64,000 bases of DNA, from assembly GCF_002938435.1 (NCBI RefSeq), contig NZ_POQT01000017.1, positions 1-64,000 of the forward strand, given 5' to 3'. A model generated the notes under the pieces. That model made no database searches, had not been told where the DNA came from, and saw nothing but the letters and a program-made list of their open reading frames with translations. This document shows, piece by piece, positions 1,127 to 18,593 of the stretch (positions within the stretch are counted from its first letter, which is position 1; the number at the start of each line of letters is the position of its first letter). This DNA is from Blastococcus saxobsidens (GTDB taxonomy: Bacteria > Actinomycetota > Actinomycetes > Mycobacteriales > Geodermatophilaceae). Made by a program: the position numbers and the translations under genes.

Positions 1127-3283
1127 GTGGGAACCGGGCGGCCAGGCCGGAGTGGTTCCACGCGACAGGCGGTTCCGAGGGCGGTGAGCACGATCGTCCC
1201 CTCCGGGCCCCGGCTGCACCGGAGCGGTACCGGCGCCCCGCTGGGCGTCGTCGTCGTCTCCTACGGCAGCGCCGAGCTCCTCAGGCGCAACCTCGCCCCC
1301 GCGGGCCTGCCGGGTACGGACGTGCGCGTCGTCGTCGTCGACAACTTCTCCTCGGCGGCCGAGCGGGGCGCGGTCCAGGAGCTCGGCGCGGCGCACGGCT
1401 GGCACGTCGTCGCCATGCCCGACAACCGCGGCTTCGGCGCCGCGTGCAACGCTGGGGTCGAGGTCGCCCGGGAACTGGGCTGCCGCACCTTCCTGTTCCT
1501 CAACCCCGACGCGGTCGTCACGCCCGGCGTGGTGGCCGAGTTGCGTGCACAGAGCCTGCGCGAGCCGCTCTCGCTCATCAGCCCGCGCCTGCTGTCGAGC
1601 GACGGGGACGTCGTCTTCCTCGCGGCCCGCACCGACCTGCGCGACGGCCGGGTGCGCCGCCGCCCGAGTGCCGACGGTCCGCGCAGCACCGAGCCCGGGG
1701 ACTGGCTCTGCGGCGCCTGCATGGTCGTCCACGACGAGCTGTTCAGCCGGATCGGCGGCTACGACGAGGACTACTTCCTCTACTGGGAGGACGTCGACCT
1801 CGGCTACCGGGCGGTCGCCGCAGGTGCCACCGTGGTCCTGCGCGAGGACCTGGTGGCCGTGCACGACGAGGGTGGCACCCACGGCCCGCGCCACGGACGC
1901 GCCAAGTCCGCTCTGTACTACCGCTGGAACTGCCGCAACCGCCTCGCCTTCGCGGCGCGGAATCTGGACCGGCGGCTGCTGCTGCGGTGGGTGCTCGCCA
2001 CCCCGGCGGTGAGCTGGGACATGCTCCTGCGCGGAGGCCGGCGCCAGCTGCTGCGCTCCCCACGGCTGCTGTGGGCGGCGGTGGCCGGCTCGCTCGCGGG
2101 GCTGGCGATCGCGCTGCCCGTGGTCGTGACCGGCCACCGGCCGCCCCGCCCGGCAGTCCTCGTCGTCCATCCCGGCGCGGAACTCTACGGTTCCGACCGG
2201 GTGCTGCTGGAATCGGTCGAGGCCCTGGTCCGGCGGAGCGCGGTGACCGTCGCACTCCCCGGGCCAGGCCCACTCGAGGCCGAGCTCGAAGCGCGCGGGG
2301 CCCAGGTGGTCCACTGCCCGATGCCGGTGCTGCGCAGGGCGGCCCTGCGCCCTCGCGGCGCCCTCCGGTTGCTCGGTGACGCCGTCCGGGGACTGGTGCC
2401 GGCGTACCGCCTGCTGCGGCGGCACGGTGCCGGCGGGGTGTACGTCAGCACGCTGACGATCCCCTCCTGGGTGCTGCTGGCCCGGGCCGCCCGCCGGCGG
2501 GTGGTGTGCCACGTGCACGAGGCCGAGCGGGGTGCACCCCGGCTGCTGCGCCGGGGCATGGCGCTGGGGCCGGCGCTCGCGCACGGGGTGGTGGTCAACA
2601 GCCGCTTCAGCCTCGAGGTGCTCGTCGAGGTCACCCCGCGGCTGCGCGGCCGCAGCACGGTCCTCTACAACGGAGTGCGGGGACCGGGGACGCCGGTTCC
2701 CGCGCGGGCCGGGCTGACGGGCCCGGTCCGTCTCCTCTTCATCGGCCGGCTGTCCGCGCGGAAGGGGCCGCAGGTGGCGGTCGCCGCGCTGCGCGAACTG
2801 GTCGCCCGCGGCGTGGACGCCCGCCTGGCGCTGCTCGGCTCGGTGTTCGAGGGCTACGAGTGGTTCGAGGACGAGCTGCGCGCCGCCGTCTCGGCCGGCG
2901 GGCTCGACGACCGGGTGGAGTTCCTCGGGTTCCACCGGGACGTCTGGCCGCACCTGGCCGCAGCCGACGTCGTGCTCGTGCCCTCGGTGGTCGACGAGCC
3001 GTTCGGCAACACCGCGGTCGAAGCGGTGCTAGCCGCCCGGCCGCTCGTGGTGAGTGCCACCAGCGGCCTGCGTGAGGCCGCGGCGGGGTACGCCTCCGCC
3101 CAGGCGGTCGACCCGGCCCGGCCGGCGGCCTGGGCCGACGCGGTCGAACGGGTCGCGGCGGACTGGGCCACGTTCCGTCGGCTGGCCCTCGACGACGCCG
3201 CGACCGCCCGGGACCGGCACGCGCCCGCCCGGTACCGCGAACGGCTGGCCGACATCGTCGTCGGCCCGGCGGGGGGCGCATGA
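1127..3283 (+). CDS. Bifunctional glycosyltransferase, GT2 fused to GT4
   Basis: The N-terminal domain (about 38-290) is a rhamnosyltransferase-like GT2: VVVVSYGSAELL, LNPDAV, and YFLYWEDVDLGYRA near the acceptor site. A hydrophobic segment (about 310-332) follows, then a GT4 domain (about 345-715) with HPGAELYGSDR at its start and EPFGNTAVEAV, the nucleotide-sugar E(X7)E-type region, near its end. The protein is 718 residues, about the sum of two ordinary enzymes. It probably adds two successive sugars to a lipid-linked glycan at the inner membrane face. The GTG at 1127 is chosen because AAGGAGG lies 8 bases upstream; a later GTG at 1184 has only a weak site. It is the first gene of a three-gene operon and overlaps the next gene by 4 bp. 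Confidence 0.88.
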   Translation: MGTGRPGRSGSTRQAVPRAVSTIVPSGPRLHRSGTGAPLGVVVVSYGSAELLRRNLAPAGLPGTDVRVVVVDNFSSAAERGAVQELGAAHGWHVVAMPDNRGFGAACNAGVEVARELGCRTFLFLNPDAVVTPGVVAELRAQSLREPLSLISPRLLSSDGDVVFLAARTDLRDGRVRRRPSADGPRSTEPGDWLCGACMVVHDELFSRIGGYDEDYFLYWEDVDLGYRAVAAGATVVLREDLVAVHDEGGTHGPRHGRAKSALYYRWNCRNRLAFAARNLDRRLLLRWVLATPAVSWDMLLRGGRRQLLRSPRLLWAAVAGSLAGLAIALPVVVTGHRPPRPAVLVVHPGAELYGSDRVLLESVEALVRRSAVTVALPGPGPLEAELEARGAQVVHCPMPVLRRAALRPRGALRLLGDAVRGLVPAYRLLRRHGAGGVYVSTLTIPSWVLLARAARRRVVCHVHEAERGAPRLLRRGMALGPALAHGVVVNSRFSLEVLVEVTPRLRGRSTVLYNGVRGPGTPVPARAGLTGPVRLLFIGRLSARKGPQVAVAALRELVARGVDARLALLGSVFEGYEWFEDELRAAVSAGGLDDRVEFLGFHRDVWPHLAAADVVLVPSVVDEPFGNTAVEAVLAARPLVVSATSGLREAAAGYASAQAVDPARPAAWADAVERVAADWATFRRLALDDAATARDRHAPARYRERLADIVVGPAGGA

Positions 3284-4290
3284 CCGCCCGGATGCCGGCG
3301 CCGTCCGTCCCGGGCACCGCGCAGGACGCGGTCCGGGTGACCATCGCCGTGCCCACCTACCGGCGCCCCGACGAGCTCCGCGCGCTGCTGCCGCTCCTGC
3401 TGGCGCAGGCGCGCGAGGTGGCGGCCGGCGGCTATGCCGTCGACGTCCTGGTGGTGGACAACGACCCGGGCCGCGGAGCCGCGGTCACGGTGTCGGAAAT
3501 GACCGCTCCGGAGCTGCGGTACGCCGCGGAACCGACCCCGGGGATCGCCGCCGTCCGCAACCGCGCGCTCGCCGAGGCCGCCGGTGCGACGCTGCTGGCC
3601 TTCATCGACGACGACGAGCGCCCGCAGCCGGGCTGGCTGGCGGCCCTGCTCGACACGTGGTCGGCCACCGGCGCCGCCGCGGTGTCCGGCGTGGTCATCA
3701 GCGAGTACGCCGGTGCGCTGGATCCGTGGATCGACGCGGGGAACTTCTACTTCCGCAGCCGCAGGCCCACCGGCACCCCCATCGACGTGGCCGCCTGCGG
3801 GAGCCTGCTCCTCGACCTGGACCAGATCCGGTCCCTCGGCGTGCGGTTCGAGTCCGCCCTCGGCCTGGCCGGCGGCGAGGACACCCTCTTCAGTCGTGCC
3901 CTGACCCGCGCCGGCGGCCGCATCGTGTGGTGCGACGAGTCGGCCGCGATCGACTGCGTGCCGGTCGAACGGATGACCCGGGCCTGGGTGCTGACCCGGG
4001 CCTGGAGCCACGGGAACACCGCGGTCCTCACCGAGCTGCGACTGACCACCGGTGCGTCAGCCCGGCTGCGCGTGCGCGCAGCCGGGCTGGGCGGCGGGGT
4101 GGGGCGGGTCGTCGCCGGGGCCGTGCGCTGGAGCTGGGGGATGCTGTCGCGGTCGGACCGCCACCAGGCCCGAGGGCTGCGGGCGCTCCTGCGCGGCGCC
4201 GGCATGGTCGGCGGGGCCTGCGGCCTGGTCTTCGAGGAGTACGCCCGGTCCGGTCGCCGCTGGCGGCTGGCACGAGGAGGAGTCCGATGA
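3280..4290 (+). CDS. GT2 family glycosyltransferase
   Basis: A 336-residue family-2 glycosyltransferase with the GT-A nucleotide-binding strand VTIAVPTYRRPDEL at the N-terminus and the metal-binding region LLAFIDDDERPQPGWL around residue 107. GGEDTLFSRAL marks the acceptor-side helix. The C-terminal 100 residues are Arg-rich and hydrophobic, consistent with peripheral membrane attachment. The start overlaps the upstream stop as ATGA, so translation is coupled. It is clearly paralogous to the minus-strand GT2 at 6564-7649 (same DDDERP and GEDTLF motifs and same C-terminal layout). Sugar and acceptor cannot be told from sequence. Confidence 0.9.
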   Translation: MTARMPAPSVPGTAQDAVRVTIAVPTYRRPDELRALLPLLLAQAREVAAGGYAVDVLVVDNDPGRGAAVTVSEMTAPELRYAAEPTPGIAAVRNRALAEAAGATLLAFIDDDERPQPGWLAALLDTWSATGAAAVSGVVISEYAGALDPWIDAGNFYFRSRRPTGTPIDVAACGSLLLDLDQIRSLGVRFESALGLAGGEDTLFSRALTRAGGRIVWCDESAAIDCVPVERMTRAWVLTRAWSHGNTAVLTELRLTTGASARLRVRAAGLGGGVGRVVAGAVRWSWGMLSRSDRHQARGLRALLRGAGMVGGACGLVFEEYARSGRRWRLARGGVR

Positions 4291-5030
4291 ATGCGCTGGC
4301 AACAGCACGATCGGCCGCCGTGGCCGCGCGGCGGTCCGCCCGCCGCTCGGCCGGGACGCTGCTGGGCTCGGCGGTCGAGGTGCGCACCGAGCGGCCGGAG
4401 GTGGTGCTCACCTTCGACGACGGCCCGGAGCCGGGCGGGACCGACAAGGTGCTGTCCGCCCTGGACGGCGCCGGGGCGACCGCGACGTTCTTCGTGCTGC
4501 TCACCCGGGTCCGGAGGTATCGCTCACTGCTCGACGAGGTGCTGGCCGCCGGGCACGAGGTCGCCCTGCACGGGGTCGACCACCGGGCGTTGCCCACGTT
4601 GCCCGCGGACGAGGTGGCTCGGCTGGTGCGCGGTGGCCGGGCGGAGCTGGAGGATGCGACCGGCCGGCCGGTGCGCTGGTTCCGCCCGCCGTACGGCCGG
4701 CAGACGTTCCGGAACTGGCGTTCGGTCACCGGTGCAGGATTGATCCCGGTGCTGTGGGGGCCCACCACCTGGGACTGGAAGGACGTGTCGGTCGCCGAGC
4801 GCGTCGCCAAGTCGCAGCAGGGCGTCCGGTCCGGCGCGATCGTCCTGGCCCATGACGGCTTCGCCGGGCCGGCGGACGGCGCCTGCGACGGGCCGCCGCC
4901 GGTACTGGACCGCGGAGAGGTGATCGCCGGGGTGCTGGAGGCGTACGCCGATCACGGCCTCTCCGCCTGCTCGCTGGAGCACGCGCTGCTCTCCGGTGAC
5001 CTGGTCCGCGAGACCTGGTTCCCGGGCTGA
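4287..5030 (+). CDS. Polysaccharide deacetylase (NodB homology domain)
   Basis: The 247-residue protein carries the carbohydrate esterase 4 motifs in order: LTFDDGPEP with the catalytic and metal Asp pair, ALHGVDHR as the metal-binding H-x3-H, RWFRPPYGR, and VLAHDG with the C-terminal His. It should remove acetyl groups from N-acetylated sugars of the locus polysaccharide or of peptidoglycan. The N-terminus has many Arg and Ala but no clear signal peptide, so its compartment is uncertain. The ATG overlaps the preceding stop (ATGA) and follows GAGGAGG at 4274-4280. Its last 79 bases overlap the 3' end of the flippase gene on the opposite strand. Confidence 0.9.
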   Translation: MNALATARSAAVAARRSARRSAGTLLGSAVEVRTERPEVVLTFDDGPEPGGTDKVLSALDGAGATATFFVLLTRVRRYRSLLDEVLAAGHEVALHGVDHRALPTLPADEVARLVRGGRAELEDATGRPVRWFRPPYGRQTFRNWRSVTGAGLIPVLWGPTTWDWKDVSVAERVAKSQQGVRSGAIVLAHDGFAGPADGACDGPPPVLDRGEVIAGVLEAYADHGLSACSLEHALLSGDLVRETWFPG

Positions 5031-6571
5031 GCGACCCGGTCCGAGGGGTCACCCCCGCCCCGCCGCGAGGCCATCTGCCGTCCCCAGGCCGCGACGCCGG
5101 CCAGGTCCCGCCGGATCGGCGGCGCCACGGCGGCCAGGGCGTAGGCGGCCAGCCCGGTGAGCAGGCCGGCAGCCAGGCGGCCGGCCGAGGGCCAGCCGAC
5201 CGACATCTGGGTCGCGGCGAAGCATGCCGCGCCGGCGGTACCGGCGCACGCGGTGACCCGTAGCGCGCCGAGGTAGAGGTCCCGGACCGGCACCACCGTG
5301 GTGCGGGACAGCCACCACAGGGACAGCGGCCACTCGATCAGCGCGGCCGTCGCGTAGCCGGCCGCCACCCCCACCACCCCGAAACGGCTGCCGACGCCGA
5401 TGCACACCGCGCTGAGCACCAGGGATACGAGGGTGTACCGGAACAGGGCACCGGACAGCCCCCGGGAGAGGTAGACCCAGTAGCCCACGAAGGACAGCGT
5501 CTGGGCGCTGCCGGCCACGGCCAGCAGCGCCAGCACGGGGGCCACCTCCGTCCACCGGTCGCCCAGCATGACGTCGACGAGGGGCCCTGCGGCGCCGGCG
5601 GCCAGTGCCATCCCGGCCACGAGGGAGTACCCCAGCGCGAGCTGGCTGCGGCGCAGGTACTCAGCCGCCCGGTCCGGATCGTCCTGGAGCCGTGACAGCA
5701 CCGGGACGGCGACCGTCGTCGCCGGCGAACGCAGCTGGTTGAGGGGGGTCATCAGCAACTGGAAGCCCCGGTTGTAGATGCCGAGGGCCGCCGGTCCGGC
5801 GGTGAGGCCCAGCAGCAGGTTGTCCAGGTTGTTGCCGACGTAGTACACCAGCTGGGTCCCGGTGAGGCCGCTGCCGAACCGTACGAGAGGGGTCAGCCCC
5901 ACGCCCCTCCTGGGCCGGCGCGGCCTCCACCGGCCGAGGCGGACCACGATCACCAGCGCAACGGTTCCCTGGGTCAGCTGCTGGGCAACCAGCGCCCAGT
6001 AACCGGCCCCGGCGGCAGCGGCACTGATCGCGACCCCGAAGGCCGCCAGCTGGGCCGCCAGATCGCAGCCGGCCACGCCCCCGAAGCGGAGGTCGCGGAT
6101 CAGCCCCGCCCGGTACTGGGCGGCCAGCCCGTTGAGCACGAAGGTCAACGCCAGGCAGCGGACGACCCCGGTGAGCTCCGCCTCCCCGAATGCCCCGGCC
6201 ACCGGCTCAGCGGCGAGCACCGCGACCCCTGCCAGCGCAAGGCCCGCGGTGACGTTGAGCCAGAACAGGCCGTCCCGCTGCGCGGCGGAGAGCTTGGGGG
6301 CCCGGATGGCCGCGGTCGACAGGCCCAGGTCCCGGAAGACCTCCCCGATGCCCACGACGACCAGTCCGACGGCGAGCAGGCCGTAGTCCTCGGGGCTGAG
6401 CAGCCGGGCGAGGACGACGACGGACGCCAGTTGGAGGAGGATGCGCAGGCCCTGACCGGCCAGGGTGACGCCGGCCCCCCGGGCGGCTGCCCGGCCGAGG
6501 CCCTCCGGCGACCGTCCGACCGTGTCCCCCTGCGACGGCGCGGGCACGGCGGGAGCGGTGCTCTCACGCAT
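4952..6571 (-). CDS. Polysaccharide flippase (Wzx/MOP superfamily)
   Basis: A 539-residue polytopic protein with 12-14 hydrophobic segments and a charged C-terminal tail. Sequence landmarks of the lipopolysaccharide/teichuronic acid exporter branch are LARLLSPEDYGLLAVGLVVV after the first helix and GNNLDNLLLG in the middle. It should translocate lipid-linked repeat units across the membrane for the polymerase encoded upstream. The start at 6571 overlaps the preceding glycosyltransferase by 8 bp, and the order polymerase fusion, GT2, flippase forms one minus-strand operon. The last 26 or so residues are encoded opposite the deacetylase gene and may be non-essential. Confidence 0.88.
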   Translation of the reverse strand: MRESTAPAVPAPSQGDTVGRSPEGLGRAAARGAGVTLAGQGLRILLQLASVVVLARLLSPEDYGLLAVGLVVVGIGEVFRDLGLSTAAIRAPKLSAAQRDGLFWLNVTAGLALAGVAVLAAEPVAGAFGEAELTGVVRCLALTFVLNGLAAQYRAGLIRDLRFGGVAGCDLAAQLAAFGVAISAAAAGAGYWALVAQQLTQGTVALVIVVRLGRWRPRRPRRGVGLTPLVRFGSGLTGTQLVYYVGNNLDNLLLGLTAGPAALGIYNRGFQLLMTPLNQLRSPATTVAVPVLSRLQDDPDRAAEYLRRSQLALGYSLVAGMALAAGAAGPLVDVMLGDRWTEVAPVLALLAVAGSAQTLSFVGYWVYLSRGLSGALFRYTLVSLVLSAVCIGVGSRFGVVGVAAGYATAALIEWPLSLWWLSRTTVVPVRDLYLGALRVTACAGTAGAACFAATQMSVGWPSAGRLAAGLLTGLAAYALAAVAPPIRRDLAGVAAWGRQMASRRGGGDPSDRVAQPGNQVSRTRSPESSACSSEQAERP

Positions 6572-7649
6572 GCGTCGGGTCCTGGAGCGCGGGGGCCTCG
6601 CGTGGGAGCGGGGCGCCGGCGACGCGGGCGTACTCGCCCATCACGTGGCCGAAGGCGCCGGTGACCAGGCCGGCATAGCTGGCCAGCGTGGCCGCCGCCC
6701 GTCCCCGGGCGCGGAGACGGCCGGTACCCACGGCCACAGCCCATGCGCCGGCTGCCTGGATCAGCCGGACGGCGGCCCTGGCCACGACGGTGGCGCGCAA
6801 CCGCATCCGCCCGGCCGGGCCCTGCGAGAGCACGAGCTCGGCCCGGCTCCAGGAGCTGCCGGACCGGAAGCAGCGGCGCAGCACCCACCGCCGCGTCAGC
6901 CGGTCGGCGGGCACGGGCTCGACGGCTTCGGCCTCGTCGCACCAGCGGATCTCCTCGCCCGCACGGACGAGGGCATGCGTGAAGAGGGTGTCCTCGCCGC
7001 CGGTGAGGCCCAGCTGCTCGTCGAACCGGAGGCCCAGCGCCCGCACCGTGGGCAGATGGAGCAGGAGGTTGCCGGCGCCGGCGCCGGCAACGCGCGACCC
7101 GGTCGGCTTGCGGGGGCGGTCGAAGACACCGCTACCGGCGATCCAGGGGTCGATCGACTCGGGGACCGCACTGCTCACGGGACCGGCCACCGCGGCGCAG
7201 CCCCAGTCGCGCCAGGCGTCGGTGAGCCGGCGCAGCCAGTCGGGGAAGGGCCGCTCGTCGTCGTCGACGAACACCAGGACCGCAGCCTGCCCGGCTTCGG
7301 CCAGCGCACGGTTGCGGGCCGCGGAGATACCTGGCCGGGGCTCGTGCACGTACCGGACACCCCGCCCCGCCCAGCGCTGCACGACCTCGGAAGCGTCGCC
7401 GTCGGGATCGTTGTCCACGACCAGGATGCCGGCGCGGGGCACCACGGTGGAGGCCTGGGCCACCAGATCCGCCAGCAGGGTGGGCAGCAGATGCGTGCGC
7501 CGGTAGGTGAGCACGGCGATGACCGTGGCGGCCCCGGCGTCTTCCTCCACCACGTGCGGCTCCTCGGTCGTCGGTCCAGCCCGTAGTGCTCCATCGACCG
7601 CAGACGCCCGGAGCTTGACCCGTCCCGTTCCGTGCCCGGGCACGGTCAT
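6564..7649 (-). CDS. GT2 family glycosyltransferase
   Basis: 361 residues. IAVLTYRRTHLLPTL forms the first Rossmann strand, VFVDDDERPFPDWL holds the metal-binding acidic residues, and GGEDTLFTHALVRAG follows. It is a paralog of the plus-strand GT2 at 3280-4290. The ATG at 7649 overlaps the upstream stop by 4 bp (ATGA), which fixes the start; the frame stays open further upstream, but there it only runs antisense through the polymerase fusion frame. It probably adds one sugar of the repeat unit exported by the flippase downstream. Confidence 0.88.
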   Translation of the reverse strand: MTVPGHGTGRVKLRASAVDGALRAGPTTEEPHVVEEDAGAATVIAVLTYRRTHLLPTLLADLVAQASTVVPRAGILVVDNDPDGDASEVVQRWAGRGVRYVHEPRPGISAARNRALAEAGQAAVLVFVDDDERPFPDWLRRLTDAWRDWGCAAVAGPVSSAVPESIDPWIAGSGVFDRPRKPTGSRVAGAGAGNLLLHLPTVRALGLRFDEQLGLTGGEDTLFTHALVRAGEEIRWCDEAEAVEPVPADRLTRRWVLRRCFRSGSSWSRAELVLSQGPAGRMRLRATVVARAAVRLIQAAGAWAVAVGTGRLRARGRAAATLASYAGLVTGAFGHVMGEYARVAGAPLPREAPALQDPTHA

Positions 7650-10057
7650 GGGGCGGTGGCCGACAGGCGCGGCAGCGCGAAGGCCGGCTTGGGAGCGGGG
7701 GCCGCGGCGATCGCGCCGTCCTCGCGGATCGGTACGCGAGGCCGCAGAAGGAGCCCCAGTGCCAGCACCAGGGTGTCCACGTTGCTGGCCATCGGGCCGA
7801 AGAACAGGCCCCAGAGGGCCATCGGCACGAGCAGGCACACCAGGCCAGAGGCCTGCCGGCGGGCGAGCTGCTCGGCCAGCCCGATCAGCACGAGCACCCC
7901 CGTGGCCAGGCCGAGCAGGGCGCCGGCCGGTCCGAGCGCCGCCCACAGGTCGGCGACGATCGAGTGCAGCTGCACCCCGCGGGCCAGCATGAAGTTCTCG
8001 ACGTAGCTCTCGGCCGTGGGGATGTTGGTCACCGCGATGCCGGCCTTCGCGAGCAGCAGGTCCTCGCTGTTGGGCACGGTGCCCAGCCCGAAGCCGAAGG
8101 GATGCGCCGGGAGCAGCGCCCAGGTCACCGTCCACTCGGGGCGACCGCCGAGCAGGAGGGAACCGGTCTGGGCGATCTGGGTGGCCGTCCGCTGCTGGAC
8201 CTCGGCGCCGAGCGCCCCGGCGAGCATGAGCTCGGTCAGCAGCCGGTAACCGCCGTAACCGATCGCGGCGACCACCGGCAGGGCCGGCCAGCGCCACCGC
8301 CGGTGCACCGGGCGGTCCGGCGCAGGTCGCCGTTGCCAGAGGACCAGCGCCGCCCCCACCACGCAGAAGCCGAAGGCGCTGCGGGCGTCGTTCGTGACGT
8401 TCAGGAGGGCGAGGACGCCGAGCGCGGCCGCACCGAGGGCTGGTCGGCGTGCGCCGACGGCCAGCGACAGCGCGATCACCATGAGCGGTGAGGAGAGCTG
8501 GAACTTCCAGAGGTTGGCCGTGCCGGCTGCGGAGCTGAGCTCGGTGAGCAGCATGCCGACCCCGAAGGCGATGCCGAGCACCGGTATCGGCAGCACCCCG
8601 CGTGCCCACAGCAGCACCCCGACCCCGCCCACGGCGCCGAGGACCGCCGACCCGCGGGCGGCAGCTTCGTACGGTGCGAAGCCGTGGTCGGGGGAGTACC
8701 ACCAGGCGAGCAGGGCCCCCGACAGCAGTCCGACGCCGGTGAGGACGAGCAGGAGGGTCATCCCGCGGTGCCGGCGCACGGCGGGCAACCAGAGCGGCAG
8801 CAGGGCCACCGCGGCGAGCAGACCTGCGGACAGGCCCATGGGCAGGGGGCGGGTGACACCGACCATCGTGGTGGCCACCACCGCGACGGCCCGGGATGCC
8901 GCGACCTGGGCGGCTGCGGGTACCGCACGATTCGGGGACGAGAGGTCGGTCGCCGCGCAGCGGCCGTCGAGCCACCGGGTCGCGTCTCCACGGAGACCGG
9001 CCAGCAGCACCGCCCGCGCACCGGCGTTCGCCGGCAGGAGGCCGTCGACCACCACCCCGGTGAGCGGAAGACCGGAGGAGTGCACGTCCTCCAGCGCTGA
9101 GCTGAGATCGGGAGCGGTCGTCGCCCGCCCGTCGGCGACGACGAGCACGCCATCCCACGGCCCGCCGCTCCCGCGCAGCTCGTGCGGGCGGAGCGCGATC
9201 AGCTCCAGACCCGGGGCGCTCAGCTCGGCGGCGAGCGGCCCGGTGTCCGTGGCCGCCCCCAGGAGGGCGATCCGCCGACCGGACCCGCCGGTGGGCCCCG
9301 GGCGCAGGGTCCATCGCAGCCGGATGATCTCCTCGGCCCGATCCGGCAGGTCGACCGACGACCGGCGCACTGCCCACGGGGAGCGGCGCCCCTCGACCGC
9401 GAGTGCCGCCCCGGGCAGCAGGCCGAGCACGGGCGCGTTGGTCAGGCGGGCCACGTCCCAGCGCCCGCGGACGCGGGGACGGCCCAGCTCCGCCAGGCCG
9501 GCGGCGACCGCCGCCGCACCGGCGCCGGCCGCTGCACCGAGCACGAGCAGGACGGCCGCCGGGCGGGAGGCCGGCACGGGTGCCGCGGCGTCCTCCACCA
9601 CGGTCACGGCCAGCTGCGGTCCGTCGTCGCCGGCGAAGAGTTCCACAGCGCTGCGCCGCGTCTCCTCGGCCACGGTCCGCGCCACGGCGGCCGCCTCGGC
9701 CGGTGTGCCCCGGGTGGAGACGAGGTGGAGGACGCTCGCGTCGCGGTCGACGGTGACTTCGAGGCCGGCGCCGGGCGATCCGCCCGGATCCAGGCGGTCG
9801 GCCACCCGGGCGAGAACGGACGACGACGACGCGAGCTCCGCCACCGAGGGCAGGACGGTCGTCCGCACCCGGGCGGCCGACGACGGGTCCTGCTCATCGG
9901 CGACGACCGCCGCGTCCACGTAGAGGGTTGCCTGCGCCTGGTAGGCGGCCGGGGTCAGCAGGGCGGCGGCAGCGGCCAGGAGCATGCCGACCGCACCGGC
10001 CGTGACCACCCAGACCCAGCGGCCGGCGATCGCCCGGGCGTAATCCCTCAGTTCCAC
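7646..10057 (-). CDS. Wzz-like / degenerate BY-kinase / O-antigen polymerase fusion
   Basis: 803 residues in three parts. Residues 1-190 are a Wzz-type chain-length domain: short cytoplasmic start, a TM helix (about 14-34), periplasmic helices, and a second TM helix (about 166-190). Residues 207-345 align with the kinase domain of the divergent BY-kinase: APVLGLLPG, AEEIIRLRWTLR, then RRIALLGAATDTGPLA where a Walker A should be, and GVLVVADGRATTAPDLSSAL with GVVVDGLLP. Lys/Ser of the P-loop and the Walker A' and B acidic residues are gone. From about 388 the protein is polytopic and resembles O-antigen ligase/polymerase proteins, with a large loop around HPFGFGLGTVPNSEDLL. It should polymerise the exported repeat units. 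GTG at 10057 follows GGGAGGGGG on the coding strand. Confidence 0.8.
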   Translation of the reverse strand: MELRDYARAIAGRWVWVVTAGAVGMLLAAAAALLTPAAYQAQATLYVDAAVVADEQDPSSAARVRTTVLPSVAELASSSSVLARVADRLDPGGSPGAGLEVTVDRDASVLHLVSTRGTPAEAAAVARTVAEETRRSAVELFAGDDGPQLAVTVVEDAAAPVPASRPAAVLLVLGAAAGAGAAAVAAGLAELGRPRVRGRWDVARLTNAPVLGLLPGAALAVEGRRSPWAVRRSSVDLPDRAEEIIRLRWTLRPGPTGGSGRRIALLGAATDTGPLAAELSAPGLELIALRPHELRGSGGPWDGVLVVADGRATTAPDLSSALEDVHSSGLPLTGVVVDGLLPANAGARAVLLAGLRGDATRWLDGRCAATDLSSPNRAVPAAAQVAASRAVAVVATTMVGVTRPLPMGLSAGLLAAVALLPLWLPAVRRHRGMTLLLVLTGVGLLSGALLAWWYSPDHGFAPYEAAARGSAVLGAVGGVGVLLWARGVLPIPVLGIAFGVGMLLTELSSAAGTANLWKFQLSSPLMVIALSLAVGARRPALGAAALGVLALLNVTNDARSAFGFCVVGAALVLWQRRPAPDRPVHRRWRWPALPVVAAIGYGGYRLLTELMLAGALGAEVQQRTATQIAQTGSLLLGGRPEWTVTWALLPAHPFGFGLGTVPNSEDLLLAKAGIAVTNIPTAESYVENFMLARGVQLHSIVADLWAALGPAGALLGLATGVLVLIGLAEQLARRQASGLVCLLVPMALWGLFFGPMASNVDTLVLALGLLLRPRVPIREDGAIAAAPAPKPAFALPRLSATAP

Positions 10058-10303
10058 GGTGCCCCCTCCCGGCGTCCGTGGGCCATCGTGTCGCACATCC
10101 CGTGCCGATCGGCCGGCTCGGCGGTGATCCGTGCCCCTGCATGACCCCATGGGGTGGCTCCGGCCCGTGCAGCGCCGCCCGTACGACGTCGCGAGCAGCA
10201 CACTCGCGTGCATTGAGCCGGCCGGCGCAGGGCCGGACGGCCCCGTGCGTCCCGGGCGGCAGCGTCCCGCTGCGCCCGTGTGCACAGACGAGGAGTGCCA
10301 GTC
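10058..10303. promoter_or_regulatory. Divergent promoter region of the two polysaccharide operons
   Basis: The 246 bp between the polymerase fusion and the BY-kinase must hold both promoters. It contains a perfect 12-bp palindrome, ACCCCATGGGGT (10144-10155), and an inverted repeat CGCGAG / CTCGCG (10190-10195 and 10203-10208). Either could be an operator that controls both directions. I did not find a convincing -35/-10 pair. Confidence 0.4.
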
Positions 10304-11731
10304 GTGAACACCCGAGGTGCGTTGCACGTCCTTCGCCGGCGGTGGACCGCGGTCCTCGCCACGACCGTGGTCGGCCTGCTCGGTGGGCTGGTGTACTCCG
10401 CGACGGCGCCGGTCACCCACGAAGCCACAGCAGGGGCCTTCTTCTCGCTCGTCTCGGGCAGCTCGGCCTCGGACCTGGTGCAGGGATCGACGTACGCCCA
10501 GAACCAGGTGGAGTCCTTCGCCCAGCTGGCCAGGACCCCGGAGGTCCTCCAGCCGGTCATCGACGAGCTGGGGTTGGCCGCGACCCCGGCCCAGCTCGCC
10601 GCCCAGATCGAGCCGACCGTGCCGACGGGCACCGTGATCGTCCAGGTGACGGCGACCGACGAGTCCGCCGAGCGCAGTGCCGCGCTGGCCAACGCGGTGA
10701 TCATCTCGCTGTCCGACGTCGTCGAGCGGATCGCCCCGAAGGACGAGGGCGGCCGGTCGACCGTCGTGGCCACCACGGTGGCCCCCGCGGAGGTCCCGAC
10801 CGCTCCGGCGTCGCCGGACGTGCCCCTGGCCGTCGTCGCCGGTCTCGTACTGGGCCTGCTCGCCGGGTTCGCGCTCGCCTGGCTGCTGGAGGCCTTCGAC
10901 ACGCGGGTCCGCGACGCCGAGGTGGTGGCGGAGCTGACCGACCTCCCGGTCGTCGGCAGCCTGCCGGCCTGGCCGGCGGACAGCGGGCAGGTGGTGGTGA
11001 CCGCTGCGCCGCACAGCCCGGCGGCGGAGAGCTTCCGCCAGCTGCGTACCAACCTGGAGTTCCTCCGCGTGGGCGAGGGGGGCGTCCTCGACGAGGGACG
11101 GGCCCAGGTCCTCGCCGTGACCTCGGCGCTGTCCGGTGAGGGCAAGTCGACGGTGTCCGTGAACCTGGCCGCGACCCTGGCCGAGACCGGCGCGCGGGTC
11201 CTTCTCGTGGATGCCGACCTCCGTCGTCCGGCGGTGGCCGGCGTGCTCGGGATCGAGGGCGGTGTCGGGCTGACCACCGTGCTGGCCGGCCAGGCCGACG
11301 TCGAGGACGTCGTCCAGGAATGGGGCCCGGTCGGGCTGCACGTGCTGCCCTCCGGCGCCGTCCCGCCGAACCCGGCCGAGCTGCTGAGCTCGCCGGCGAT
11401 GCGCGCACTGATGGCCCGGCTGCGCGGCACGTACCAGTACGTGGTCGTCGACACGACACCCGTGCTGCCGGTGGCTGACGCGACCGTGCTCTCCCGGGTC
11501 GTGGACGGGATGATCGTGGTGGCCAACGCCCGCCGGGTCCGCCGGCGCCAGGTGGGCCAGACCCTGGCCGGTCTGGCCCAGGTCTCCGCCCGCGTCCTCG
11601 GGGTCGTCCTCAACCAGGTGCGCCGCGACGAGGAGGCGTACTCCTACGCGCGCACGCCCTCCGCGGCGGAGCCGGCCGACGGCGCCCTGCAGGCGAGCGC
11701 GGACCCCGTCGCCCGCCAGCCGGTCGGGTGA
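10304..11731 (+). CDS. Polysaccharide-biosynthesis tyrosine autokinase (Wzc/CpsCD-like BY-kinase)
   Basis: 475 residues. A Wzz domain lies between TM helices at about 14-32 and 175-195, followed by a cytoplasmic kinase domain with LPVVGSLP, AESFRQLRTNLEFL, Walker A SALSGEGKST (about 274-283), Walker A' VLLVDADLRRP (about 299-309) and Walker B YVVVDTTPV. The tail has two tyrosines (about 446 and 448, EEAYSYAR), a small cluster for a BY-kinase. Such kinases autophosphorylate and set chain length and export with the polymerase. GTG at 10304 is chosen because GAGGAG lies 8 bases upstream; GTG at 10280 lacks a site. It overlaps its phosphatase by 4 bp. Confidence 0.9.
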   Translation: MNTRGALHVLRRRWTAVLATTVVGLLGGLVYSATAPVTHEATAGAFFSLVSGSSASDLVQGSTYAQNQVESFAQLARTPEVLQPVIDELGLAATPAQLAAQIEPTVPTGTVIVQVTATDESAERSAALANAVIISLSDVVERIAPKDEGGRSTVVATTVAPAEVPTAPASPDVPLAVVAGLVLGLLAGFALAWLLEAFDTRVRDAEVVAELTDLPVVGSLPAWPADSGQVVVTAAPHSPAAESFRQLRTNLEFLRVGEGGVLDEGRAQVLAVTSALSGEGKSTVSVNLAATLAETGARVLLVDADLRRPAVAGVLGIEGGVGLTTVLAGQADVEDVVQEWGPVGLHVLPSGAVPPNPAELLSSPAMRALMARLRGTYQYVVVDTTPVLPVADATVLSRVVDGMIVVANARRVRRRQVGQTLAGLAQVSARVLGVVLNQVRRDEEAYSYARTPSAAEPADGALQASADPVARQPVG

Positions 11732-12312
11732 GCGGCACCGGAGTAGGGCCGCTGCTCGTCGTGTGCACGGGCAACATCTGCCGTTCGCCGGCCGCAGAGC
11801 TGCTGCTCCGCGCAGGCCTGGGGGACGACGCCGGCATCGCCGTCGCCAGTGCCGGCCTCGACGCCCGTGCCGGTGAACCGCTCGCGCCGCCGACGGCCCG
11901 GCTGCTGGCCGCGCGCGGGCTAGAGCCCGGTGGCTTCGTCGCCCGTCAGCTGGAGCCGGCGCTCCTGCGCACGGCCGGGGTGGTGCTGACCATGACGCGC
12001 GCCCAGCGCTCGGCGGTGGTGGCCCAGGCCCCGGCCACCGTCCGCCGGGCGTTCACGCTGCACGAGTTCGCCGGGCTGGCCCGGTTGTCGGGCGCCCTTG
12101 CGGGCGACGGTGGGCCCGCGGGCCGGCTGTCCGCCCTCGTCGCGGCGGCGCCCCGGCTGCGCGCCCTGCGCACCGGCGCCCGGGACGACGACATCGAGGA
12201 TCCCTACCGGAGGTCCGAGGAGACGTTCGTGCGTGTGCTGACTCGGATCGAGTCCGACGTGGCCACGCTCCTCGACGTCCTGACCCCCGGGTTCGTCAGC
12301 GACTCTGCGTGA
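11728..12312 (+). CDS. Low-molecular-weight protein-tyrosine phosphatase
   Basis: The P-loop VCTGNICRSP is at residues 12-21 (nucleophile Cys13, Arg19), and the general acid lies in EDPYRRS near residue 158. At 194 residues it is longer than the usual 150 or so because of an insertion around 110-145. It should dephosphorylate the tyrosine cluster of the kinase encoded just upstream; the GTGA overlap of the two genes couples their translation. This kinase/phosphatase pairing is standard for exopolysaccharide loci. Confidence 0.92.
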   Translation: MSGTGVGPLLVVCTGNICRSPAAELLLRAGLGDDAGIAVASAGLDARAGEPLAPPTARLLAARGLEPGGFVARQLEPALLRTAGVVLTMTRAQRSAVVAQAPATVRRAFTLHEFAGLARLSGALAGDGGPAGRLSALVAAAPRLRALRTGARDDDIEDPYRRSEETFVRVLTRIESDVATLLDVLTPGFVSDSA

Positions 12313-12388
12313 GGGGGCGCGCCTGGTCGGGCCCTACTCGGTCCCGCACCATCAGGTGAATGACCCCTCGGGGCGATGACAGTACGTA

Positions 12389-12415
12389 GTCAGTCCTGGT
12401 GGACTGGTCACTGAC
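12389..12415 (+). promoter_or_regulatory. Weak inverted repeat ahead of the cytidylyltransferase gene
   Basis: GTCAGT (12389-12394) and ACTGAC (12410-12415) are separated by 15 bases in the 136-bp gap before the next gene. The gap interrupts the operon, so an independent promoter is likely here; no clear -10 box is visible. Confidence 0.25.
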
Positions 12416-12448
12416 ATCGGCAGTGGACTGCCACGGGGGAGATGCAGC

Positions 12449-12931
12449 ATGACTCGAGTCGTCGGCTACGCGCCGGGCGCGTACGACCTGTTCCACGTCG
12501 GACACCTCAACCTGCTCCGGCATGCGGCCCAGCACTGCGACCACCTCATCGCGGGTGTCGTCGCCGACGAGGTGCTCGTGCAGACTAAGGGGCGGGCGCC
12601 GCTCATCCCGCTGGCCGAGCGGATGGACATCGTCCGCAGCCTGCGCATCGTCGACCAGGTGCACGCCGAGGTGGTGCCCGACAAGCTGGACACCTGGCGC
12701 GAGGTGGGCTTCGACGTCATCTTCAAGGGCGATGACTGGCGCGGCAGCGAGAAGGGCCGCCGGCTCGAGCGGGACTTCGCCGCCGTCGGCGTCGAGGTCC
12801 GCTACTTCCCGTACACCGTGCACACCTCGAGCACGGCGCTGCGCCGTGCCCTGGCCGCCCTCGAAGGGGCTGCGGTGCGCGAGTCCCACAGGGCGCAGGC
12901 CATGGCCTTCGCCCACGACCGCCGGAGCTGA
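12449..12931 (+). CDS. Adenylyltransferase/cytidylyltransferase family protein (TagD-like)
   Basis: 160 residues, a single nucleotidyltransferase domain. GYAPGAYDLFHVGHLNLL carries the HxGH nucleotide-binding motif (HVGH at about 17-20); IFKGDDW follows in the middle, and TVHTSSTALRR stands where TagD has its RTEGISTT motif. It probably makes a CDP- or ADP-activated alcohol, for example CDP-glycerol, for decorating the polysaccharide. The altered last motif means substrate is uncertain. GGGGGAG lies upstream of the ATG. Confidence 0.82.
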   Translation: MTRVVGYAPGAYDLFHVGHLNLLRHAAQHCDHLIAGVVADEVLVQTKGRAPLIPLAERMDIVRSLRIVDQVHAEVVPDKLDTWREVGFDVIFKGDDWRGSEKGRRLERDFAAVGVEVRYFPYTVHTSSTALRRALAALEGAAVRESHRAQAMAFAHDRRS

Positions 12932-13091
12932 CGCGATGGCGTCGCCGACCGGCGACGGCGACCGGCCGGCCCGCGGTCGACTGCCCCGTTGGGGGTGGTG
13001 CCGCGGCTGGACCGTTGGAAAAGCGCCCGTCCACCGGTGGACTGACGTGAGGACCGGGGCCCCGTCGGGGTCGGGCCGGAGGGGCTGGGCG

Positions 13092-13850
13092 ATGACCGTG
13101 GACACCAAGACCGGACCGTCGGTGCGCGCGCGCATCGCATCGGTCGGCCCGATGCCGCTGCTGGCGGCATTGGTGGCGGTGGACCTCGCGCTCGTCGTCA
13201 CCTCGGTCGTCCGCCTCGTCACGGCCGGGCCCGACGACGGCGACCCGTGGCTGCTCGAGACCGACCGCGGGGTCGCGGAGTTCGCCGGTTACGCGCAGCA
13301 GGCGGCTCTCGTCGTCCTGCTGCTGGCCCTGTGCCGGCTCACCGGGCACCTGGTCTGGGTCGCCTACGCCCTGGTCTTCCTCGGCGCCCTGGCCGACGAC
13401 TACCTGCGCCTGCACGAGAGCAAGGGCGCCTGGCTGGCCGAGCAGTTGTCGCAGGACCTCTGGTTCCCGGCCGACGGGTTCCTGGGCCTGCGCGCCAACG
13501 ACCTCGGCGAGATGATCGTCTGGGGCCTGCTGGGCGTGGTGCCCATCCTCGCCGCCATCCTCCTGCACCGGCGCAGCGACGGCTGGAACCGCCGGGCCAG
13601 CCTCGGCATGGCCGCCCTCCTCGGGGCCTACGTCTTCTTCGGCGCCGTCCTGGACCAGGTCCACGTGCTGTTCCTCGGGAGCTGGCTCGGCGACGTCGTC
13701 GGGACGCTCGAGGACGGCGGGGAACTGCTGGTCCTCAGTGCCTCCGTCGGCTACGTCGTCGGCCGTCTCCTCGCAGCCGGCCGGCACCGGACGCCGCAGC
13801 TGCCGGAGTCGACGCCGGTGCCCGAAGCCGTGATGGCACCAGGCAGGTGA
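13092..13850 (+). CDS. Polytopic membrane protein of unknown function
   Basis: 252 residues with about six hydrophobic segments (for example LLAALVAVDLALVVTSVVRL and MIVWGLLGVVPILAAILL) and conserved-looking polar patches DDYLRLHESKGAWLAEQL and FLGLRANDLGEM between them. I do not recognise the family. It lies between the TagD-like gene and an acyltransferase and overlaps the latter by 4 bp (GTGA), so it probably works in polysaccharide modification. The ATG at 13092 is preceded by GGAGGGG with 7 bases spacing. Confidence 0.75.
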   Translation: MTVDTKTGPSVRARIASVGPMPLLAALVAVDLALVVTSVVRLVTAGPDDGDPWLLETDRGVAEFAGYAQQAALVVLLLALCRLTGHLVWVAYALVFLGALADDYLRLHESKGAWLAEQLSQDLWFPADGFLGLRANDLGEMIVWGLLGVVPILAAILLHRRSDGWNRRASLGMAALLGAYVFFGAVLDQVHVLFLGSWLGDVVGTLEDGGELLVLSASVGYVVGRLLAAGRHRTPQLPESTPVPEAVMAPGR

Positions 13851-14980
13851 CCGGGACCGTCGCGGTCGTCCGGTCCGCGGTGCCCGGGGACGACCGGCAG
13901 TTCCTGCCCGCGCTCGACGGGCTCCGGGCGGTGGCCGCTCTCCTGGTGGTCGGCTACCACGCCGCACTGACGACCTGGCCCCTCGACGTGGGCTGGGCCG
14001 GCGTGGCGATCTTCTTCGTCCTGAGCGGCTACCTCATCACCCGGCTCTCGCTCGCCGACGAAGCGGGGCGGGGGTTCTCCTTCCGGGGATTCTGGATCCG
14101 CCGGGTCGCCCGCATAGTCCCGCTCTACCTGCTCGCCGTGGCCGCGTTCATGGTCCTGCCCTTCGTCGGCGAAGGTGGCGGTTGGTCGACGGTCGCACGA
14201 ACCCTGCCGTACTACCTGACCTTCAACGGGGAGTTCGTCGAGGACGGCCCGATGAGCGTCGCCTGGTCACTCGGCATCGAGGAGAAGTTCTACCTGCTCT
14301 GGCCGATCGTGGCCTTCGCGCTGTTCGCCGGACGTCGTGGCCGCCTGCCGGCCACGGGTACCGCAGCGGTGCTGTGCCTGGTGACCGCCGTCCTGCTGCC
14401 CGTCCCGGGGCTCAGCGGCTATGCCGGTCTCCTCGTGGGGGCAGCGCTGGCCTTCCTGGAGCGCCGCTGCGGCTGGGTGGCGGACGGGCTGCCGGGTGCC
14501 CTCGCACGGCCGGTCGCCGGCTGGCTGAGCACCCTGGCCGTCGCCGGCGTGCTCGTCGCCGCGAACGTCCCGGCCGACGACTCCGTCGTCTACCTGCTCC
14601 TCTGCCCATTGGTGGCCGTCCTGCTCCTGCACCTGGTGCACGGCCGTTCCGCGGTGACGCGGTTCCTCGGCACCGCCCCGATGCGGTGGCTGGGCCGGCG
14701 CAGCTACGGGATCTACCTGCTGCACACGCTGGCCCTCACGGTGTGCGCGAAGGCGCTGCCCGCCGGCCTGCCCGCCCGCGACCTGTGGGTCGGCGCCGGG
14801 TGCCTGGCGCTCACCCTCGTGGTCAGCGACGTGGCCCACCGGCTGGTCGAGCGGCCCTTCATCCGCCTCGGCCGTGAGTGGTCGCGGAGTGCGGAGGCGG
14901 ACCGGGCACCGGGGGTCGGTGCCCGGGTGGAGCTCGGGCGGGTCCCCGGTAGCCGGGCGTCGCGGCGGCACCAGGGCTAA
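13847..14980 (+). CDS. Acyltransferase 3 family protein (OafA/YrhL-like)
   Basis: 377 residues, about ten TM segments. The N-terminus FLPALDGLRAVAALLVVGYHA holds the family's RAVA...H motif, followed by FFVLSGYLITR, FWIRRVARIVPLY and SVAWSLGIEEKFYLLWP. The C-terminal RRSYGIYLLHT and LVERPFIRL are also typical. It should transfer an acetyl or other acyl group onto the exported sugar at the membrane. GTG at 13847 overlaps the upstream stop as GTGA. Confidence 0.92.
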   Translation: MTGTVAVVRSAVPGDDRQFLPALDGLRAVAALLVVGYHAALTTWPLDVGWAGVAIFFVLSGYLITRLSLADEAGRGFSFRGFWIRRVARIVPLYLLAVAAFMVLPFVGEGGGWSTVARTLPYYLTFNGEFVEDGPMSVAWSLGIEEKFYLLWPIVAFALFAGRRGRLPATGTAAVLCLVTAVLLPVPGLSGYAGLLVGAALAFLERRCGWVADGLPGALARPVAGWLSTLAVAGVLVAANVPADDSVVYLLLCPLVAVLLLHLVHGRSAVTRFLGTAPMRWLGRRSYGIYLLHTLALTVCAKALPAGLPARDLWVGAGCLALTLVVSDVAHRLVERPFIRLGREWSRSAEADRAPGVGARVELGRVPGSRASRRHQG

Positions 14981-15047
14981 CCTGGCTGTCCGGCCCTCCG
15001 CGCATCCGGCGCGGCGTGTGCGGCCGACGGAACCCAGGAGATTCTGC

Positions 15048-18592
<3,545 letters not shown>

Positions 18593-18593
<1 letters not shown>

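Follow-up and report, generated by a model that had tools for sequence, protein, structure and literature searches.

A single reading frame in the 64,000-nucleotide stretch of Blastococcus saxobsidens analyzed here (contig NZ_POQT01000017.1, positions 1 to 64,000; hereafter the window) raises the question of whether a polysaccharide co-polymerase (PCP) and a Wzy-type polymerase (the enzyme that joins sugar units to build a surface polysaccharide) can exist as one polypeptide, and of what the segment lying between them is. The frame (coding part 7649-10057, stop codon 7646-7648) runs uninterrupted on the minus strand from a GTG start, which as judged by eye is preceded by a GGGAGGGGG-like ribosome site, and it encodes a protein with a Wzz-type chain-length part (residues 1-195), a cytoplasmic part (196-388), and a Wzy-like part (389-803). 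A preliminary description made from the letters had claimed just such a chain, with a segment derived from a bacterial tyrosine kinase (BY-kinase) in the middle, and analysis of the 803-residue product bears this out. We read it as a PCP that has become naturally fused with its Wzy polymerase, a reading to which we assign a probability of roughly 0.6; the architecture is new and the pathway is known.

The three-part architecture was sought in related genomes, as had been suggested at the outset, and it recurs. Of the 112 family genomes searched, 64 had a match of some kind at E up to 1e-5. Both halves lie in one frame in 13 genomes, the window included, which are spread over 4 of 12 genera, and none of the 13 frames has an internal stop (Geodermatophilus sp. 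DSM 45219 is an example; the protein of locus L041 is truncated N-terminally by the contig end). One more family genome, G026, carries just the polymerase half. Beyond the family this half was likewise all that was found, in 10 genomes of an order search (298 genomes, E up to 1e-10) and in 2 further genomes of a class search (148 genomes), none of these polymerase matches having a Wzz part or remnant in frame, and a phylum search (149 genomes, E up to 1e-8) returned the window's polymerase and no other; these draws are samples that overlap, so fusions may also occur elsewhere. A plasmid search gave one record, from Actinomyces oris, aligning with residues 499-699 of the polymerase part alone.

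Phylogenetic analysis placed the Wzz domains of the fused proteins in one clade (100/100), with the Wzz domains of the neighboring kinases on their side of a 99/94 split, and placed the fused polymerases in one clade (100/100) against 12 stand-alone polymerases. The Wzz tree leaves out L001-L019, L036, and L050-L059 and uses the label "wzzonly" for a short locus without a kinase match; the polymerase tree leaves out the fragment L070. A BY-kinase is head-to-head with the stand-alone polymerase in L062, L064, and L065; in L061, L070, and L087 the two genes are neighbors on one strand. The L087 polymerase has a Wzz-kinase gene immediately upstream, whose product (L087:11219-12571, minus strand) is a BY-kinase with Walker motifs and a C-terminal tail without tyrosine, and this gene order is a plausible pre-fusion arrangement. 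We consider it highly probable that a kinase paralog was joined in front of wzy and then decayed, and a single origin of this kind is the simplest account.

The two membrane parts are recognizable by rather weak domain matches that recur among the homologs. PF02706 matches residues 2-87 of the window protein with E 3e-4 and 21.3 bits in hmmscan, under the cut-off of 25.5, and with 26.6 bits, slightly above it, in the genome search; across the 13 fused proteins it was found in 10 (E up to 1, best E 1.1e-5), and TIGR01006 was found in 12. Rough hydropathy averaged over the 13 homologs places transmembrane (TM)-like segments at 13-39 and 167-192 around a 134-residue loop, which is the arrangement of two TM helices around an extracytoplasmic Wzz domain that characterizes PCP-2a proteins, and the same mean profile leaves 201 residues without a TM-like segment between the Wzz and polymerase parts. 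From residue 390 on there are about 9-10 TM-like segments and one 83-residue loop at 617-699, as estimated from hydropathy only; Wzy polymerases are marked by a large extracytoplasmic loop, and their TM helices number about 10-14 (PMC12004945). PF04932 (Wzy_C) matches residues 547-715 with E 2.6e-3 and 18.0 bits against a cut-off of 31.7, and was found in 6 of the 13 fused proteins (E up to 1, best E 5.8e-7). R559, R639, E641, G655, G657, H698, W705, G709, and G712 are identical in all 25 fused and stand-alone relatives aligned, which is the pattern expected of a working enzyme. Judging from these sequence features, the C-terminal part very probably has Wzy activity.

What the middle segment derives from was less easily read. 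Pfam and NCBIfam scans of the window protein gave no convincing family over residues 216-388, a phmmer search of PDB with this one sequence as query gave 0 matches, and in a BLASTP comparison of the fused protein and the neighboring kinase only the Wzz parts aligned (13-215), the remaining pieces being chance; kinship of the middle with kinases therefore had to be sought with profiles. A profile of the middle searched against PDB returned 19 matches at E up to 10, of which 9 are BY-kinases, including the top match (VpsO, E 0.0015) and 6 of the top 8 ranks, with a de novo design second (E 0.026). With the full-length profile, all 11 matches are BY-kinases and all fall within profile positions 269-345, each of them weak taken one by one (E 0.02-1.7). 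Aligned by hhalign to a profile of 35 actinobacterial BY-kinase domains, the middle reached a probability of 97.2 and a score of 73.5, against 16.8 for the reversed control and a maximum of 18.8 in 150 column shuffles. A hidden Markov model (HMM) of the middle, run at E <0.01 over 2642 open reading frames (ORFs) from the window and 23 loci, recovered all 13 fused proteins; its sole other matches were 12 of the 19 kinase ORFs. The preliminary description had gone further and aligned the segment with the kinase motif by motif. The kinship stands at the level of profiles, but hhalign is confident for residues 300-341 alone ("DGVLVVADGRATT...GVVVDG"), equivalent to the end of the kinase domain, and the N-terminal alignment (juxtamembrane element, helix, and first strand) surfaces only once low-confidence columns are admitted. 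On this profile evidence, the middle is a shrunken BY-kinase remnant, of about 150 residues against about 240 in the kinase domain, from whose alignment the nucleotide-binding middle is absent and which thus falls short of a complete BY-kinase fold. AlphaFold2 (AF2), given two sequences (the window protein and its L036 relative), modeled a low-confidence four-strand core in the remnant, with strands at 261-267, 284-289, 303-309, and 332-338 and helices in between; the predicted local distance difference test (pLDDT) score is 63-78 per ten residues over 260-339 and <50 elsewhere.

The absence of the Walker motifs, which had been noted for the window protein, is general. Patterns for Walker A, A', and B are found within 196-388 in none of the 13 fused proteins, while A' and B, and likewise GKST, are present in 12 of 12 neighboring kinases; a stretch reading "VALDSP" or "VAVDSP" in L038/L040 is possibly, by eye, a faded Walker B strand. 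The EX2RX2R motif constitutes half of the BY-kinase octamer interface (PMC3795738), and its pattern [ED]..R..R sits on the helix where it is expected in 11 of 12 kinases and in 0 of 13 fused proteins, in five of which 6 matches occur, all away from that helix. A tyrosine tail with 2-3 Tyr, present in 12 of 12 kinases, has no counterpart in the fused proteins, where no Tyr lies beyond residue 775 in any of the 13 and 0 or 1 lies within 190-388. The fused proteins thus lack both the Walker-bearing cytoplasmic kinase and the Tyr-rich C-terminal tail of a PCP-2a protein, and the remnant answers to the description of a BY pseudokinase, homologous to BY-kinases with the catalytic motifs lost. Some of it has been kept. 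The juxtamembrane P209 and V210 are identical in 13 of 13, R240 and R246, on the helix that makes up the ring interface of kinases, are invariant, and the pattern DGxxVVxDxRxTT...GVVxDG is retained across most of the 13, in which segment 190-388 ranges in length from 150 to 211. Among four close relatives, identity is 50-57% in the remnant, 59-71% in Wzz, and 68-75% in the polymerase, and in distant relatives the remnant is often conserved no less than Wzz (36 vs 30% in L043; 38 vs 32% in L046). The ratio of nonsynonymous to synonymous differences (pN/pS) rises from 0.46 in the polymerase through 0.58 in Wzz and 0.65 in the remnant at 196-345 (0.69 in its core) to 0.90 in the linker; these values come from 5 closely related sequences (10 pairs), whose sites are GC-rich, and are meant as a ranking of domains alone.

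An active BY-kinase had been claimed to be encoded head-to-head with the fused gene, and a BY-kinase is found so placed in 12 of 12 loci having flank, the window included; the window's kinase passes the NCBIfam tyrosine-autokinase model TIGR01007 (174 vs 108 bits). At the mfd-linked locus, other genomes of the family have related kinases alongside other polymerases. A second type of polymerase, unfused, lies head-to-head with the kinase in 11 of 16 loci examined (L082-L086, L120-L122, L124, L128, and L129), as recognized with an HMM, wzy2, built from L082, L083, and L086, which match by construction. A third type lies on the kinase's strand in its own frame in L119, L125, L126, and L127 and is 57-62% identical to the L123 protein. 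Pfam Wzy_C was seen, always under its cut-off, in L082, L083, L086, and L127, and the same scan gave no match in L121, L119, the L123 protein, or the stand-alone polymerases of L061, L062, and L087. The window's polymerase had no BLASTP match at E 0.01 in the loci with second- or third-type polymerases. In a quick kinase tree made with no bootstrap, the L119 kinase is nested inside the clade of fused-gene partners (99 and 98 by SH-aLRT), yet it adjoins an unfused polymerase; this tree is without L020-L036 and ORFs with a Wzz part missing E 1e-20, and it holds one out-of-family kinase beside an unfused polymerase. L119 and the loci with unfused polymerases show that the kinase is not dependent on the fusion, and we rejected the idea of an obligatory link between the two.

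A 961-residue frame in genome G058 (L123:8012-10894, plus strand) combines a Wzy-like protein of the third type with a complete Wzz and intact-looking BY-kinase in the opposite order. If confirmed, it would mean that the same partners were joined a second time, independently; a single frame of this kind was present in one genome only among 108 searched (E up to 1e-120). The locus beside mfd (window 1127-18593; L037-L048, L082-L086, L119-L129) has related kinases and at least three polymerase types, which resemble serotype cassettes swapped at a fixed site.

Several results weigh against the reading of a PCP fused to its polymerase. Such a fusion is lacking in 99 of the 112 family genomes, 11 loci with related kinases carry an unfused polymerase at the same place, and the Wzy_C match of the window protein falls under the Pfam cut-off. 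The L087 kinase, at the locus with the plausible pre-fusion order, has no well-supported position in the Wzz tree (62/11), and the HMM of the middle matched just 12 of the 19 kinase ORFs. The full-length AF2 model is useless, with a mean pLDDT of 37.5. The preliminary description had offered structural kinship of residues 200-350 to kinases as a check. The sequence profiles favor kinase ancestry, but Foldseek, with the low-confidence AF2 remnant model as query, returned generic alpha/beta folds and no BY-kinase in the best 50 of 1440 matches (best E among these 2.3e-3). We take the Foldseek outcome as no support rather than refutation, since 103 of the 183 model residues had pLDDT <50. Finally, in the WzzE:WzyE complex the ratio is about 8:1 with Wzy inside the ring lumen (PMC10030265), and a fused protein alone could hardly reproduce this, so tethering would need a mixed ring or another stoichiometry.

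We suggest that a paralog of the cluster's Wzc-type BY-kinase was fused in frame upstream of wzy and that its kinase domain then shed the nucleotide-binding middle, so that a small alpha/beta module is what is left of it in the cytoplasm. The fusion would keep the Wzz hairpin permanently beside the polymerase, making the co-polymerase contact independent of assembly from separate proteins, and phosphorylation control would be left to the separate head-to-head kinase and a phosphatase. The function of PCP-2 proteins has been modeled as assembly and disassembly governed by BY-kinase phosphorylation (PMC12004946). The remnant itself may mainly act as a folded piece in the cytoplasm that spaces the second helix of Wzz from the first helix of Wzy, and it might additionally dock onto the active kinase. 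On balance we lean towards tethering of the co-polymerase to the polymerase as the main function of the fusion. A ring of fused proteins only could hardly hold eight polymerases, which makes a mixed ring with the paralogous kinase attractive. In such a ring the fused protein might be a keystone subunit, its Wzz hairpin set among the Wzz parts of the active kinase with one lumenal polymerase per ring, and its eroded kinase part might let that position accept or terminate kinase-ring contacts. We regard this as a speculative and improbable arrangement; if true, it would bring a 1:1 fusion into line with the 8:1 ratio of co-polymerase to polymerase known elsewhere.

Several known systems resemble the fused protein in part. 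In Wzc and other PCP-2a proteins, too, one chain carries a Wzz domain and, after it, a BY-kinase-derived domain in the cytoplasm, whereas in the fused protein the kinase part is shrunken, is without Walker motifs, EX2RX2R, and Tyr tail, and is followed by a polymerase. WzzE and WzyE are likewise a co-polymerase and a polymerase acting together in the membrane, but as two proteins at about 8:1, while here one chain gives 1:1 unless it is mixed with the separate kinase (PMC10030265). EcpK/HfsB and SMc01795, the last an example of a single-chain PCP-pseudokinase, have a BY-kinase-like domain without catalysis that is joined to, or works with, a co-polymerase (PMC12004946); no joined polymerase was found in the available part of that paper, and in the fused protein the domain is more reduced and an active-type kinase is next door. 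The stand-alone actinobacterial Wzy proteins of L049, L061-L069, L087, and L088 belong to the same polymerase family, several of them beside a BY-kinase, but have no Wzz or kinase remnant in front. No PCP-Wzy fusion is reported among the literature matches listed, a scope outside which most subscription papers fall, or in the available parts of PMC12004945 and PMC7310880. That some soil actinobacteria naturally keep a Wzc-derived co-polymerase covalently joined to Wzy is a sign from evolution that these partners work in contact, and the fused protein provides a single polypeptide in which this contact, normally hard to study, could be solved structurally, with related species that have unfused polymerases at the same locus as natural controls.

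The preliminary description had interpreted the remnant as a pseudokinase module for docking, which would bind the active kinase and bring the polymerase to it. Its components (a three-part fusion, an eroded BY-kinase, and an active-type kinase head-to-head) all proved recurrent, and docking itself may occur. Docking would be consistent with the constant presence of the kinase in the 12 loci with flank, with the invariance of P209, V210, R240, and R246, and with a weak but real constraint on the remnant relative to the linker, and a precedent would be EcpK, a BY pseudokinase for which a scaffolding role towards its PCP has been proposed, though the EcpK authors argue that EcpK is independent of active BY-kinases (PMC12004946). 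As the main role of the remnant we nevertheless find docking unlikely, since [ED]..R..R is missing from the interface helix in all 13 fused proteins, the Tyr tail is gone, and related kinases adjoin unfused polymerases, in the case of L119 from inside the partner clade. A passive relic, in which a decayed stretch merely connects two membrane parts, would explain why the remnant is less conserved than Wzz and the polymerase in the four close relatives, as well as its relaxed pN/pS and the variable length of 190-388. We think this rather unlikely given that several distant relatives (for example L043 and L046) conserve the remnant no less than Wzz, that the DGxxVVxDxRxTT...GVVxDG pattern persists in most of the 13, and that the core is compact in the AF2 model and more constrained than the linker.

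Two further alternatives were weighed. An artifact of assembly or annotation could have joined two genes, as the polymerase is a separate gene outside the family; the halves are indeed separate genes elsewhere, yet the join recurs in 13 genomes and none of these frames has an internal stop, so we rejected an assembly error and leave the artifact explanation practically no weight. The C-terminal part could instead be an O-antigen-ligase-like enzyme that attaches the finished polymer, as PF04932 carries the name O-antigen ligase and spans both activities and the Arg and His of the loop are retained. This is very unlikely in our view, because other clusters at the locus place a Wzy_C-like gene at the same position, and no further polymerase was recognized in the cluster by eye, no gene-by-gene scan having been aimed at one.

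The surrounding genes, named by eye, are those of a Wzx/Wzy-type polysaccharide cluster, with glycosyltransferases, a flippase, a low-molecular-weight phosphatase, and a cytidylyltransferase among the neighboring ORFs and mfd further out. In all 11 relatives that have flank, a homolog of the phosphatase lies close to the kinase, and a homolog of the flippase is found in 7 of the 12 relative loci L037-L048. The features are listed in the table.

Table. Positions in the window of the fused gene, its predicted parts, and its neighbors.
Feature	Position	Strand	Basis
Fused gene, 803 aa (Wzz + BY-kinase remnant + Wzy-type polymerase)	7646..10057	minus	ORF and domain matches
Wzz/PCP domain, aa 1-195	9473..10057	minus	PF02706 E 3e-4; hydropathy mean of 13 homologs
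Predicted cytoplasmic BY-kinase remnant (juxtamembrane element and shrunken alpha/beta core, without Walker motifs), aa 196-345	9023..9472	minus	Profiles, patterns, AF2
Linker of weak conservation, aa 346-388	8894..9022	minus	Identity and pN/pS
Wzy/O-antigen-polymerase-like multi-TM domain, aa 389-803	7649..8893	minus	PF04932 E 2.6e-3 (under cut-off) and invariant residues
Divergent intergenic region, 246 bp, between the starts of the fused gene and the kinase	10058..10303		
Divergent active-type BY-kinase, 475 residues (Wzz + kinase in one chain, PCP-2a type), two tail Tyr (YSY)	10304..11731	plus	TIGR01007
Presumed low-molecular-weight tyrosine phosphatase (Wzb-like)	11728..12312	plus	CTGNICRSP motif
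Presumed Wzx-like flippase	4952..6571	minus	Sequence

The genome of the window also encodes a separate 453-residue Wzz and BY-kinase-like protein (L071:8689-10047, minus strand; contig C3, about 103688-105046), in which no Walker A or B is recognizable by eye and which is likely a PCP-pseudokinase. In addition, a 718-residue frame at 1127-3283 on the plus strand resembles, by eye, a GT2-like and then a GT4-like glycosyltransferase in one chain, and in some relatives just about 300-420 residues align.

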